A stretch of 49,385 nt of DNA. Source: Planctomycetes bacterium RIFCSPLOWO2_12_FULL_50_35. GTDB lineage: Bacteria > Planctomycetota > Brocadiia > Brocadiales > Bathyanammoxibiaceae. The notes under the pieces were generated by a model. That model was not told where the DNA came from, searched no databases, and was given only the letters and a program-made list of their open reading frames with translations. The DNA lies in contig MHZB01000064.1 in NCBI GenBank assembly GCA_001828605.1, positions 1 through 49,385 on the forward strand, written 5' to 3'. Shown here piece by piece: positions 22,729 through 28,881 of the stretch; the stretch's first letter is position 1, and every line of letters begins with the position of its first letter. Both the position numbers and the translations under genes were made by a program.

Positions 22729-24609
22729 TTAGTTCTTTTCAAGCTGATAATTTGCAGCAGAGACCAAATTATTGAACTTAACCTCCCTTTCTTTCGGATC
22801 AAGTAAAGGTCTAAGTCTAATTCTACATATAAAGCCATCTTGGTCCAGGGAGAATTCTACCAAATCGAATATGCGAGAGTGGCTTTGCCAGTCTATCGTC
22901 GCGTTTATCTTAAGGGAATCCATGTTCTTAACCTCGCCTCGGTTATAAGCAGATTGAACTTTAAATATCCATTCACGTATAGCGTGGGTGAGGTATAAAT
23001 CCATATCTATTTCCTTTGGACATGTTGCTTCATCTAAGATATTTATAAGTTCACCGTATCGCGCATGAATTTCTCCCTCAGTTAAATTACTCTCTAAAAT
23101 AAAATCTCGCTCTTGTTCAAAGGTTCTTACTTTGGCGGCATCTGAAATTGTGTATTTGTCGTCCTTATATTCAGGTAAATAGTGTTCAAGTTCGCCATTA
23201 GACAGAACATGCACTCCAGAACGTTTAAAAGCCTCAATTATTTTTTGGAGTCTCCCTTCGAGAAAGCTCCCTTCTTTTGTATTGCTTGAAATGAGACTCT
23301 TAATTTGCTCTCTAAGATATCTTAATCCAAGCAAGTAAACATAGCGTTTTTTATCCAATTCACTTGCTTTACAAAGCGCATCTCGGAAGTTTTGAAGATT
23401 TGACTCGGAGGTATCAGCTAACTTTGGTTCAAGTTCACTCAGGCACGCACTTATTGCCCTTTCGGCATCCCCTATCACCTGCATAAGATCTCTCCCTATA
23501 CCTTCCGTTTGCAAATATGCTCTACAGCGGTCATCTTCAGATACAGACTGCCTTAGTTTGCCTTTGGTTAATACGTCTAAATCAGCCACAAACTTAGCAT
23601 CAATGTTCAATTTCTTGCATATTTTGAAAAACAAATCTAATTCTTCTTTGCCGGTAACGTCAATAATACAAGCCACTAACGCCCCTAAAGGCTTGCCTCT
23701 TTTCTCTTGGATTAGACTGAAGACCTGTTGGTCAGAATAGCCTTCTACAAAAATTGGACGAGAGGCAAAGAAGAATTGTTTGTGATGCGTATTGAGCCTT
23801 GGCAATAGACGCTTTATTCTTCGCTCGTCTTCGCTATCTATTTGATCAATAAATGAAGGAGGCTTATCAGGCTGGAAAACGACACAGTGCTTCAAATCTT
23901 CAAGTGTGCGTATATCAACGTAATAAGGAGAATGCGTAACGATAAAAAATATTTTCTTCTCTGGAGAGTTAAGCGGATTGCCCGCAATCTTTCTAAGTTC
24001 TTGCAAAAAGAATGTTTGAAATTGTGGATGCAGATGCAACTCTGGCTCATCAATAATGAGGCAATTATAATCGTCATTATAGAGGAAGGTTAAAAGAGTA
24101 AGCAGTTCTTTGAGCCCATGGCACTCACTCTCCTTTAGACCATATTCTGGACCATATTCGTTTCCCACATCTATTTTCTGGATTCTAGGCTTGAGGAATC
24201 CGCCTTCTTCTACCAATCTTATTCGTCTACCAAACAACTGGGATAAGGTTGCTTCAATTTTTATCTTAATATCCAGTTTTTCTTTCAGAGTTACAAAGGC
24301 ATCGGCAGATAAGCCATAGTTCGTTCCAAAATTTTTAAGAACAGCAAATTGTCCCATATTTAACCCGCTCTCTAGGGCGCTATAGCCAAAATACTCATAT
24401 CTCTGCCTTTCAAGACCAGCGAGACGTTCCGAGCTCAAATATCGAACTTTGATGTTTTGGTTTTGACACTGTTGCTTTAATTGTTCAACAAATCGTGTTT
24501 TCCCAGTTGCATTAGGACCTACGAGATAGTTTATATTACCCCATTCATTCTTTTGGAACTTCTTGTTACCCCATAAGTCTGGAATCGAAATATTGATGTC
24601 GAGCTTCAT
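22729..24609 (-). CDS. OLD-like AAA ATPase with C-terminal TOPRIM-type nuclease domain (putative defence)
   Basis: Walker A VGPNATGKTRF; Walker B CLIIDEPELHLHPQFQ; THSPYYVD; TOPRIM-like FVEGYSDQQVF and KFVADLDVL. Noticeably more AT-rich than neighbours. Confidence 0.75.
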   Translation of the reverse strand: MKLDINISIPDLWGNKKFQKNEWGNINYLVGPNATGKTRFVEQLKQQCQNQNIKVRYLSSERLAGLERQRYEYFGYSALESGLNMGQFAVLKNFGTNYGLSADAFVTLKEKLDIKIKIEATLSQLFGRRIRLVEEGGFLKPRIQKIDVGNEYGPEYGLKESECHGLKELLTLLTFLYNDDYNCLIIDEPELHLHPQFQTFFLQELRKIAGNPLNSPEKKIFFIVTHSPYYVDIRTLEDLKHCVVFQPDKPPSFIDQIDSEDERRIKRLLPRLNTHHKQFFFASRPIFVEGYSDQQVFSLIQEKRGKPLGALVACIIDVTGKEELDLFFKICKKLNIDAKFVADLDVLTKGKLRQSVSEDDRCRAYLQTEGIGRDLMQVIGDAERAISACLSELEPKLADTSESNLQNFRDALCKASELDKKRYVYLLGLRYLREQIKSLISSNTKEGSFLEGRLQKIIEAFKRSGVHVLSNGELEHYLPEYKDDKYTISDAAKVRTFEQERDFILESNLTEGEIHARYGELINILDEATCPKEIDMDLYLTHAIREWIFKVQSAYNRGEVKNMDSLKINATIDWQSHSRIFDLVEFSLDQDGFICRIRLRPLLDPKEREVKFNNLVSAANYQLEKN

Positions 24610-24720: not shown

Positions 24721-25077
24721 TTACTTTAAGCTGATTCTATAACCCTTCTTTGTCAAAACCACCAACTTCCCTTTTAAGTCATCAAAGTTTGATTCTTTGA
24801 AAAATCTGTCTAGAGCCTTTGTTACATCTTCCCAAATAGAAGGATGGATCCTGACGACGATTATTCCACAGGTTTCTCTGGGTGGGTATTGCAAAATGTT
24901 TGCAAAATGTTTATCAAACGTTATAAGCGCCCTCTCTTGCTTTTTAGCAAGATTAACAACCTCGTTATCGGAGATCCTGGAAGCATTCAATTCTTTGACG
25001 TCTACAACATCGTGACCGGTTTCTACAAGGTGGGATACTATCCTGGAAGGAACATTTTCATCCGCAAGAAATCTCAA
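24721..25077 (-). CDS. DUF5615 PIN-like protein (putative toxin)
   Basis: MRFLADENVPSRIVSHLVETGHDVVDVKE...ALITFDKHFANILQYPP: D-E-N/D-x-F PIN-like acidic motifs. Confidence 0.85.
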   Translation of the reverse strand: MRFLADENVPSRIVSHLVETGHDVVDVKELNASRISDNEVVNLAKKQERALITFDKHFANILQYPPRETCGIIVVRIHPSIWEDVTKALDRFFKESNFDDLKGKLVVLTKKGYRISLK

Positions 25078-25311
25078 TTAAACAACTTCCTCAAAGGGTA
25101 TAAACTCCTGTTCTTTTATCAGGAAAGCAGCGTAATCAAGGCAGGCCTTAATGTCCTCTACGGCAAGATTTGGGTAATAATCTCTTATAATATCTTCTGG
25201 CGTCAGTCCCTCCTTCAATAGTTCAAGTATAAGATAGACCATAACCCTTGTACCCTTAATACAGGGTTGGCCGTGGCAGACGTTTGGGTCTATCTCAATA
25301 CGTTCTTTCAT
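25078..25311 (-). CDS. DUF433 family putative antitoxin
   Basis: IEIDPNVCHGQPCIKGTRVMVYLILELLKEGLTPEDIIRDYYPNLAVEDIKACLDYA; abuts the DUF5615 gene. Confidence 0.9.
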   Translation of the reverse strand: MKERIEIDPNVCHGQPCIKGTRVMVYLILELLKEGLTPEDIIRDYYPNLAVEDIKACLDYAAFLIKEQEFIPFEEVV

Positions 25312-25451: not shown

Positions 25452-26579
25452 TCAGATAAGCACCATATTGTCTCTGTGCACCACCTCGTCGTACGGTTTG
25501 GAGCCCAGTATCCTCTTTATTGACGTGCTGGACTGTCCTTGGATCTTCATAAGCTCTGCAGAGGAATAATTGGTGAGTCCCCTTGCAAACTCGGTGTTAT
25601 TGCCTGTGGCAAATACAGAGACCACGTCGCCTCTCTCAAAATCTCCGTCCACATCGGCTATCCCCGATGCCAGGAGGCTCTTGCCCCTCTTCGAGAGCGC
25701 ATCGTAGGCGCCGTCGTCCACGTATATCTTGCCCTTCGGCCTCAACGTAAAGCCAATCCAGCGCTTGCGGCTGGTGAGCTTTTCGCGCACGGGAATAAAG
25801 AGTGTGCCCAGCTCCTCACCTTCCATTATCTTTATCAGAACGTCCGGCGCCCTGCCGTTCGCTATGACAACCGCCCCGCCGGAATTTGTCGCTATGCGCG
25901 CAGCCCTTAGTTTGCTCTCCATACCACCCATACCGAGGTGTGTCTTTGACCTGGACGCAAGCCCCTCTATGTCTGCAGTAATCTCCTCCACCAGTGGTAT
26001 AAGCTCCACACCCTTATCCGGCCTCCTGTAAAGTCCGTCCACGGACGAGAGCATCACCAGCAGCTCCGCCCTCAAAAGATTGGCCACCAGGACGGAAAGG
26101 GCATCGTTGTCGCTAAAACTTATCTCCTCCACCGAAACGGTGTCGTTTTCGTTAATCACGGGTATGACCTTGAGACCGAACAGGGCGCTGATGGTGTTGC
26201 AGGTATTCAGATAACGGTGACGCCCTTCTAAATCCTCTCTGGTAAGCAGTATCTGGGCGGCATGATAGCCCTCCATCTTGAAACAGTCATCGTAGGCCCC
26301 GATTAACTTGCTCTGACCCACGGCGGCGGCCGCCTGTATCTCCGGGAGCGTGGTCGGCCTCTTGCGCATGCCAAGCTCGCCCATCCCCGCACCCACGGCG
26401 CCCGAACTCACCACAGCCACCTCGTAGCCGCGCCTCCTGAGACCCACTGCCTGTCTGGATATGCTCGCCACCTGCGTCATATCCAGAAGCCCGTCCTTCG
26501 TGGTAATCACGCCGGTGCCGACCTTTACCACCAGCCTTTTAGTCTTCGATATAATCTCTTTCCTGTAATTTTCTTTCAT
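25452..26579 (-). CDS. proB: Glutamate 5-kinase (with PUA domain)
   Basis: RLVVKVGTGVITTKDG...VINENDTVSVEEISFSDNDALSVLVANL...YDEVVHRDNMVLI. Confidence 0.94.
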   Translation of the reverse strand: MKENYRKEIISKTKRLVVKVGTGVITTKDGLLDMTQVASISRQAVGLRRRGYEVAVVSSGAVGAGMGELGMRKRPTTLPEIQAAAAVGQSKLIGAYDDCFKMEGYHAAQILLTREDLEGRHRYLNTCNTISALFGLKVIPVINENDTVSVEEISFSDNDALSVLVANLLRAELLVMLSSVDGLYRRPDKGVELIPLVEEITADIEGLASRSKTHLGMGGMESKLRAARIATNSGGAVVIANGRAPDVLIKIMEGEELGTLFIPVREKLTSRKRWIGFTLRPKGKIYVDDGAYDALSKRGKSLLASGIADVDGDFERGDVVSVFATGNNTEFARGLTNYSSAELMKIQGQSSTSIKRILGSKPYDEVVHRDNMVLI

Positions 26580-26724
26580 AAAGTTTTTCTATCAACCCTA
26601 TTGACATTTAGTTCCCGTGTGCTATTATCGGCCTTCGTTTGCCGTATATGCGGGCGGGTTTAATACCTTAGATTATAGTGCCGTCCATTACAAACTCAAC
26701 TGGTCTTTCCCAAAGGAGATGAAA

Positions 26725-26904
26725 ATGGCCAAGGAGATTCTGGTAGTAGGAAGTAAGATAAAGGAATACATAAAGTCTAAAGATTGCATGACATCTGGAG
26801 AGCTTATTCCTGCGCTGAGCGAGAAGGTCGAGTGTCTTCTGGATAAGGCCATTGAAAGGGCAAAGGCCAATAAGAGGAAAACTGTAGGTCCGCAGGACGT
26901 GTAA
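26725..26904 (+). CDS. Putative bacterial histone-fold protein, 59 aa
   Basis: MAKEILVVGSKIKEYIKSKDCMTSGELIPALSEKVECLLDKAIERAKANKRKTVGPQDV; RKTV-P-DV resembles histone L2/alpha3. SD-like aaaggag ~7 nt upstream; ORF track start at 26617 is probably too long. Confidence 0.7.
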   Translation: MAKEILVVGSKIKEYIKSKDCMTSGELIPALSEKVECLLDKAIERAKANKRKTVGPQDV

Positions 26905-26971: not shown

Positions 26972-28411
26972 CTAGTTTGTCTTCAGCTTCTGTATGAGGA
27001 CTTCGTTGACCATCTTAGGGTTTGCCTTGCCTGTAGACTGACGCATTACTTGGCCGACAAGGAAGCCCAGGGCCGTCTTTTTCCCTTTTTGATAATCGCT
27101 GACTGCCGACGGGTTATCATCCAGAACCTTTAGTACAAGCCGTTCCAGTTCTTCCCTGTCGCTTATCTGAAGAAGCCCTTTTTCCTCCACTATCTTAGCG
27201 GCATCACTGCCCGAGCTGGCCATGTCAGCAAATACCTCTCGGGCAGTGGGCATGCTTACGGTGCCCTTTTCGACCATTACTACCAGCCCAACCAGGGCCT
27301 CGGGGCGCACCTTAAAGTCCCTTATTCCTAACCTCCTCTCCTTAAGCTCCCTGAGCACGTCATTTGTTATCCAATTACACAGGGACTTGGGGGCGGCATG
27401 GAGTTCCACACACCGCTCAAAATAATCCGCCACTGCCTTGTCTTCCGTAAGGACCCCTGCGTCATAGTCCGAGAGGGAGTATACCTCCACAAAGCGATTC
27501 CTTCTAGTAAGCGGAAGCTCCGGAAGCATAGACCTCAGTTCGCCCAGCCAACGCTCTTCAATTACCATTGGCACAAGGTCCGGCTCCGGGAAGTATCTGT
27601 AGTCATGTGCCTCTTCCTTGGTGCGCATCCTCTCGGTCCGTTCCCTAACCTCGTCCCACAGCCTGGTCTCCATATCCACCTTTCCCCCAGAGTCTAAGAC
27701 GCCTGTCTGGCGGTTTATTTCATACTCCAGGGCCTTGAGCACGGCCTTCATCGAGTTGAGGTTCTTCATCTCCACCCTGCTGCCCAATTTCTTCTGCCCC
27801 ACGGGCCTCAGTGATATTGACGCCTCAAACCTTAGAGACCCTTCCTGCATCTTACAGTCCGACACCTCGTTATACAGCAGAATGTTTCTCAGGGTCTGCA
27901 TAAACTGCTCAACCTCTTCCAGACTGCGCATGTCAGGTTCCGTGACTATCTCAAGGAGCGGGACACCGGCGCGGTTGAAGTCCACGAGGCTGTAATCTGC
28001 CGACGCATCCTCCGGGTGGACGAGTTTGCCGGCCTCCTCTTCCAGGTGCACGTTGTTGATGTTTATCTTCTTCACCCCGCCATTTGATCTTATTTCGACA
28101 TACCCGCCCACGCCCAGGTTTAGATGGTTCTGCGATATCTGATAGTTCTTGGGCAGGTCGGGGTAGTAGTAGTTTTTCCGGTCAAACGTACTGAAAAGGT
28201 TTATCCTGCAGTTAAGCGCAAGAGATGCCTTCAGGCTGTATTCCAGGGCCTTTTTGTTTAGTACCGGAAGCACACCCGGCATTCCCAGGCACACGGGACA
28301 GACCTGGGTATTAGGGGGTGCGCCAAAAACAGTAGGACAACTGCACCAGAGCTTGGACGCAGTCGCCAGCTCCGTATGCGTCTCAAGACCTATAACTACC
28401 TCGTATTTCAT
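26972..28411 (-). CDS. gatB: Aspartyl/glutamyl-tRNA amidotransferase subunit B
   Basis: MKYEVVIGLETHTELATASKLWCSCPTVFGAPPNTQVCPVCLGMPGVLPVLN; start adjusted from 28459. Confidence 0.95.
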   Translation of the reverse strand: MKYEVVIGLETHTELATASKLWCSCPTVFGAPPNTQVCPVCLGMPGVLPVLNKKALEYSLKASLALNCRINLFSTFDRKNYYYPDLPKNYQISQNHLNLGVGGYVEIRSNGGVKKININNVHLEEEAGKLVHPEDASADYSLVDFNRAGVPLLEIVTEPDMRSLEEVEQFMQTLRNILLYNEVSDCKMQEGSLRFEASISLRPVGQKKLGSRVEMKNLNSMKAVLKALEYEINRQTGVLDSGGKVDMETRLWDEVRERTERMRTKEEAHDYRYFPEPDLVPMVIEERWLGELRSMLPELPLTRRNRFVEVYSLSDYDAGVLTEDKAVADYFERCVELHAAPKSLCNWITNDVLRELKERRLGIRDFKVRPEALVGLVVMVEKGTVSMPTAREVFADMASSGSDAAKIVEEKGLLQISDREELERLVLKVLDDNPSAVSDYQKGKKTALGFLVGQVMRQSTGKANPKMVNEVLIQKLKTN

Positions 28412-28483
28412 TATCTTGTAAGATTTTCCGACTGTTAGAACGTTGCAGCAAGCTGCCACGCTACATTAGATCCTGCCCTTAAG

Positions 28484-28881
28484 CTAAATTGGTTCCTTGT
28501 GAATCAGACCAGATATTTCAGCTAACTTAGCACGAGTTTCAGTAAATTTTTGGTCTAAGGTACCAAGCTGGGTTTCAAGGGCTTCTAGCCTCTCAATCAA
28601 TTTGGGTATCTCTGGACTAGGTTCCAATTGCTCTGTTGACTCTAAATGTTCCTTCCAGCTTATTAATGCATCAACTGTGGTCCCTATTCTCACTATTTTA
28701 GAATCTAAGTCACCAATTCTAGAACTCAAAGCAGTAATTTTGCCTTCGTTAGCGATTCCTTTTCCAACTTTTTCTTCTAATACCGATACTTTTCCATATA
28801 GATAATACCCCCCCCACAGAGTGCAATGAGGGCAGTACTGATAATTATAAAAAATGCGCTCGTTAGATCAGGTTTTCCCAT
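28484..28881 (-). pseudogene. TM-anchored coiled-coil small protein, apparently split by a G8 homopolymer
   Basis: Minus strand ATG (28879-28881) gives MGKPDLTSAFFIIISTALIALCGGG; a frame jump at the tract (28808-28815) is needed to reach YYLYGKVSVLEEKVGKGIANEGKITALSSRIGDLDSKI... which the ORF track starts at 28729 (TTG). Confidence 0.6.

Follow-up and report, generated by a model that had tools for sequence, protein, structure and literature searches.

A bacterial histone gene of probable face-to-face type at a conserved locus of one planctomycete order

To our knowledge, few bacterial histones have been studied so far. HLp of Leptospira perolatii (PDB 9QT0-9QT2) is tetrameric and wraps ~60 bp of DNA (PMC12701072), with a reported MNase protection of 35-72 bp; HBb (Bd0055) of Bdellovibrio bacteriovorus (PDB 8CMP, 8FVX) is a dimer that bends DNA (PMC11317129, PMC10627809); and the archaeal nucleosomal histones HMfA and HMfB assemble into hypernucleosomes on DNA (PMC12701072). 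Within the alpha3 histones, the face-to-face (FtF) subfamily is recognised by a profile in which R48, N52, R54, T56 and D61 are the most strongly conserved residues, and bacterial dimer histones lack R48 and N52 (PMC11390915). The equivalents in HLp are the tetramer residues R49, N53 and R55, together with the “RD clamp” R55-D62 (PMC12701072). FtF histones are known in Planctomycetota already (PMC11390915, PMC12701072), and the bacterial members come mostly from uncultured organisms (PMC12701072). The protein described here is a further example of this known family in a planctomycete.

The gene lies in a 49,385-nt stretch of DNA that was analysed as a whole and is referred to below as the window; its features are collected in the table. 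A preliminary description, made from the letters of the window, had proposed a small stand-alone gene with a good ribosome-binding site, and this agrees with what we find: the 59-residue translation that it quoted is the exact product of the ORF, proB is divergent upstream and gatB convergent downstream, and the Shine-Dalgarno motif is graded ideal. An in-frame ATG at 26719 abuts this motif and is a less likely start than the ATG at 26725. A 95-aa reading from GTG 26617 was rejected, the codon lying inside the conserved promoter and the upstream stretch varying in length among relatives.

Table. Features of the histone locus (positions are those of the window)
Feature	Coordinates	Strand	Basis or remark
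Bacterial alpha3 histone gene, probable face-to-face type, 59 aa	26725..26904	+	ORF, phmmer, motif residues, AlphaFold2 model
Sigma-70-like promoter TTGACA-16-TATTAT, TG before the -10 hexamer	26601..26628	+	11/12 consensus matches
Shine-Dalgarno AAAGGAG	26712..26718	+	6 nt before ATG
alpha1 helix, residues 9-18; predicted DNA-contact residues G9, S10, K11, K13, K17	26749..26778	+	Model; HLp contacts PMC12701072
alpha2 helix, residues 27-48; dimer core L31, V35, L38, I43; tetramer residue R45	26803..26868	+	Model; PMC12701072
N49 of the tetramer contacts; RD clamp R51-D58 and DNA-contact K52/T53 in the L2 loop; alpha3 truncated, last residue V59	26869..26901	+	PMC12701072, PMC11390915
proB	25452-26579	-	Divergent, upstream of the histone gene
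gatB	26972-28459	-	Convergent, downstream of the histone gene

Among solved structures, the best phmmer match of the protein is HLp (PDB 9qt0; E 9e-14, 54 bits), followed by HBb (E 2e-8, 37 bits) and then by HTkC of Thermococcus (E 8e-7). A family profile built from 15 relatives hits HLp at 1e-23 and the archaeal HMfA at 3.5e-4. The Pfam family PF00808 scores 21.0 bits, just below its cut-off of 21.4, so that a survey using that cut-off alone would miss the protein; the NCBIfam score is likewise below its cut-off. Pfam and NCBIfam are thus insufficient alone for the assignment, which depended on the search of the PDB and on the family profile.

The AlphaFold2 monomer (pLDDT 90.9) has helices at residues 9-18 and 27-48, in keeping with the helix-loop-long helix-loop spacing noticed earlier, and no separate alpha3 helix is assigned. 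The model was run without templates and may draw on related folds learnt in training, so it supports the fold rather than proves it. It gives a histone fold, which leaves the histone reading standing, and it superimposes on the HLp crystal structures at 0.6 Å rmsd (TM 0.92-0.97), ahead of HBb (TM 0.87-0.90 by query length) and HTkC (0.85-0.88 by query length). The chain carries a single histone fold, with an alpha2 of 22 residues, a truncated alpha3 and an end at residue 59, as in the FtF subfamily; DUF1931 pseudodimers have two histone folds per chain.

The likeness to HLp extends to ~52% identity without gaps (29/56), the R/N/R tetramer residues, the RD clamp and a chain that ends one residue past the clamp aspartate. 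The FtF profile residues occur here, at equal spacing, as R45, N49, R51, T53 and D58 (matched via R49, N53, R55, T57 and D62 of HLp), and lysines K11, K13 and K17 lie in alpha1, where the profile has K16, of which any of the three may be the counterpart. The positions of HLp that contact DNA (A13, S14, K15, K17, K21, T27, G29, T56, T57) correspond to G9, S10, K11, K13, K17, T23, G25, K52 and T53, position 56 of HLp being lysine here and not threonine. The two proteins differ at tetramer contacts, where the hydrogen-bonding S52 and T61 of HLp are replaced by A48 and Q57, and the final F63 by V. Most bacterial FtF histones have a positively charged N-terminal tail, which is almost missing here, with three residues preceding E4. 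The genomic settings differ as well: the neighbours are proB and gatB here, versus smc and map for HLp, and an HU/IHF gene is present in the window genome but missing from L. perolatii (PMC12701072).

The other described histones stand further off. HBb is also a singlet bacterial histone and shares the RKTV motif and, in alpha1, the S-K motif, but S and D replace the tetramer R and N, loop 1 is one residue longer and the C-terminus has extra residues. HTkC of Thermococcus kodakarensis (PDB 9F2C, PMC11390915) is also of the FtF subfamily and has a short N-terminus, but it is archaeal, shares fewer identities (23/49) and has a loop 1 longer by two residues. HMfA and HMfB have the common fold and the RxTxxxxD motif, HMfA being reached by the family profile only; unlike the window protein, they have a longer alpha2 and a full alpha3.

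To compare the two bacterial types more broadly, we split the 57 sequences collected, among them the window protein, by residue 49; this split was our own choice, and N49 itself is therefore no evidence for the type. What counts as evidence is that residue 45 and the chain end go along with the split. In the N49-type (43 of the 57), R45, R51, T53 and D58 are invariant (43/43), and the chain ends exactly at residue 59 in 41 of the 43 proteins. In the D49-type, which is HBb-like (14/57), residue 45 is K, N or R, with K or N in 13 of the 14, and every chain runs 1 to 16 residues past position 59 (14/14). The chain end of the N49-type agrees with the FtF structures, where the counterpart of the last residue contacts the counterpart of R45 in the opposite dimer (PMC12701072, PMC11390915).

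That the frame arose by chance or is non-coding has a negligible probability. The ORF is short and its protein stays under both family cut-offs, but the dN/dS ratios against three close relatives (those with computable dS) are 0.08-0.13, rough values given a dS of 1.0-1.8, and they place the protein under purifying selection; the Shine-Dalgarno motif, promoter and gene order are all conserved, and the local alignments with HLp, HBb and HTkC score 17-30 standard deviations above those of shuffled copies (1000 shuffles). The protein or a homologue is encoded in 30 of the 40 searched genomes, its own counted. The ORF is a real gene encoding a true single-domain bacterial histone. It could be argued that this histone bends DNA as a dimer in the manner of HBb, to which its pairwise alignment also gives 29/56 identities, equal to the HLp count, and whose structures the model matches closely. 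We consider this very improbable, because R45 and N49, reported missing in bacterial dimers (PMC11390915), are both present, the extra loop 1 residue and C-terminal extension seen in HBb-like paralogues of the same order are not, and the phmmer score is clearly higher to HLp than to HBb. The sequence and the predicted fold thus point to a nucleoid histone that very probably belongs to the FtF subfamily of alpha3 histones. The bacterial histone reading of the preliminary description is borne out by sequence, predicted fold and motif residues, and its comparison with the Bdellovibrio type is refined: among characterised histones, the protein comes closest to HLp, of the FtF type, and not to the dimeric HBb.

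For an FtF histone of this kind, we infer by analogy that the protein may form a tetramer, wrap DNA and be abundant. As in HLp (PMC12701072), two chains would pair head to tail via alpha2 into a dimer, and two dimers would join at both ends via R45, N49, R51 and the C-terminal residue, giving a ring tetramer. Approximately 60 bp of DNA would wrap this ring, held by the alpha1 lysines and the L1 and L2 loops, presumably without sequence specificity. Perhaps the protein does not organise DNA generally and is instead, for example, a regulator acting at few sites or the partner of another protein; with an HU/IHF gene in the same genome, the main nucleoid protein could be another than the histone, and the net charge is a modest +2.5 at pH 7. 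Nevertheless, all the mapped DNA-contact positions are conserved, similar or more basic, and the near-consensus promoter is conserved at every compared locus, so that such a restricted role seems very unlikely to us.

A counterpart of the promoter was found at all 16 aligned loci (the window and 15 relatives), with the TG in 15 of them and 9-11 of the 12 consensus letters matched; each copy is the top hit of a scan, and all occupy the same aligned columns of the upstream alignment. A conserved promoter this close to consensus, with its TG ahead of the -10 hexamer, suggests strong expression of the histone, which may accordingly serve, next to HU, as a general protein of the chromatin.

Gene order is also stable. 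In short stretches around the FtF histone, proB, the histone gene and gatB occur together in 13 of 14 relatives, namely in 7/7 of the window's own family (f1), 1/1 of f2, 4/4 of f3 and 1/2 of f4; at the remaining f4 locus (L034) gatB is present and proB was not found within 1.5 kb. In the short gatB stretches of six f5 genomes, gatA adjoins gatB and neither proB nor the FtF histone was found, which may reflect either loss or a different ancestry. The FtF histone gene thus has a stable order and a strong-looking conserved promoter across four families of one planctomycete order.

Histone matches were detected in 37 of the 63 genomes of the order: 8/9 in f1, 1/1 in f2, 17/17 in f3, 2/2 in f4 and 9/34 in f5. 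The f1 genomes with matches have one each, always N-type, and a second, HBb-like histone was not found in this family. Ten genomes of f3 and one of f4 have two matches; ten of these eleven were read, each with one N-type and one D-type protein. In f5, all five proteins read are D-type (HBb-like). The window genome contains one histone and one HU/IHF gene; since it is ~90% complete, a second histone is probably, though not certainly, lacking. A sample of the whole phylum gave a match, unsorted by type, in 168 of 393 genomes. It seems quite possible, if somewhat less than probable, that the FtF histone of the order is a strongly expressed, general chromatin protein working with HU, that several sister families have a two-histone system with a wrapping FtF and a bending HBb-like protein at separate loci, and that the window's family has the wrapping type only. 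With the stable FtF locus, the HU/IHF gene of the window genome and the dimer-type histone of several sister genomes, this order lends itself naturally to comparing chromatin that has one histone, two or none.

The second, HBb-like histones of f3, f4 and f5 (L047-L055, L057-L061) have D49, the extra loop 1 residue and an RDF or KDF end followed by further residues; in the two neighbourhoods searched (L047 and L057), neither proB nor gatB was found beside the gene. A further HBb-like copy of one f3 genome (L056, G019:C72:4420-4593) contains a TGA in frame close to its end and may be decayed or reflect an assembly error. A contig labelled Candidatus Kuenenia stuttgartiensis (L003) encodes an N49-type histone whose N-terminus is lysine-rich over 20 residues and which groups with HLp in the tree; it is unlike the D-type histones of f5, and the contig may be mislabelled or come from a mixed bin. 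In the tree of 60 homologues, the order's FtF-like sequences are separate from its HBb-like ones. Its columns are too few to settle origin or transfer and its deepest forks are weak (67); hence we claim no transfer from or to archaea.

Several other genes of the window deserve mention. At 24721-25311 (-), a DUF433 gene is followed by a DUF5615/PIN-like gene, an arrangement that, on Pfam matches, resembles a putative toxin-antitoxin pair. An 81-aa ORF with no Pfam match (28484-28729, -) lies on the same strand as gatB and upstream of it. The gene at 22729-24609 (-) encodes a 626-aa AAA ATPase with an OLD-like TOPRIM domain (Pfam), a make-up known among anti-phage defence proteins.
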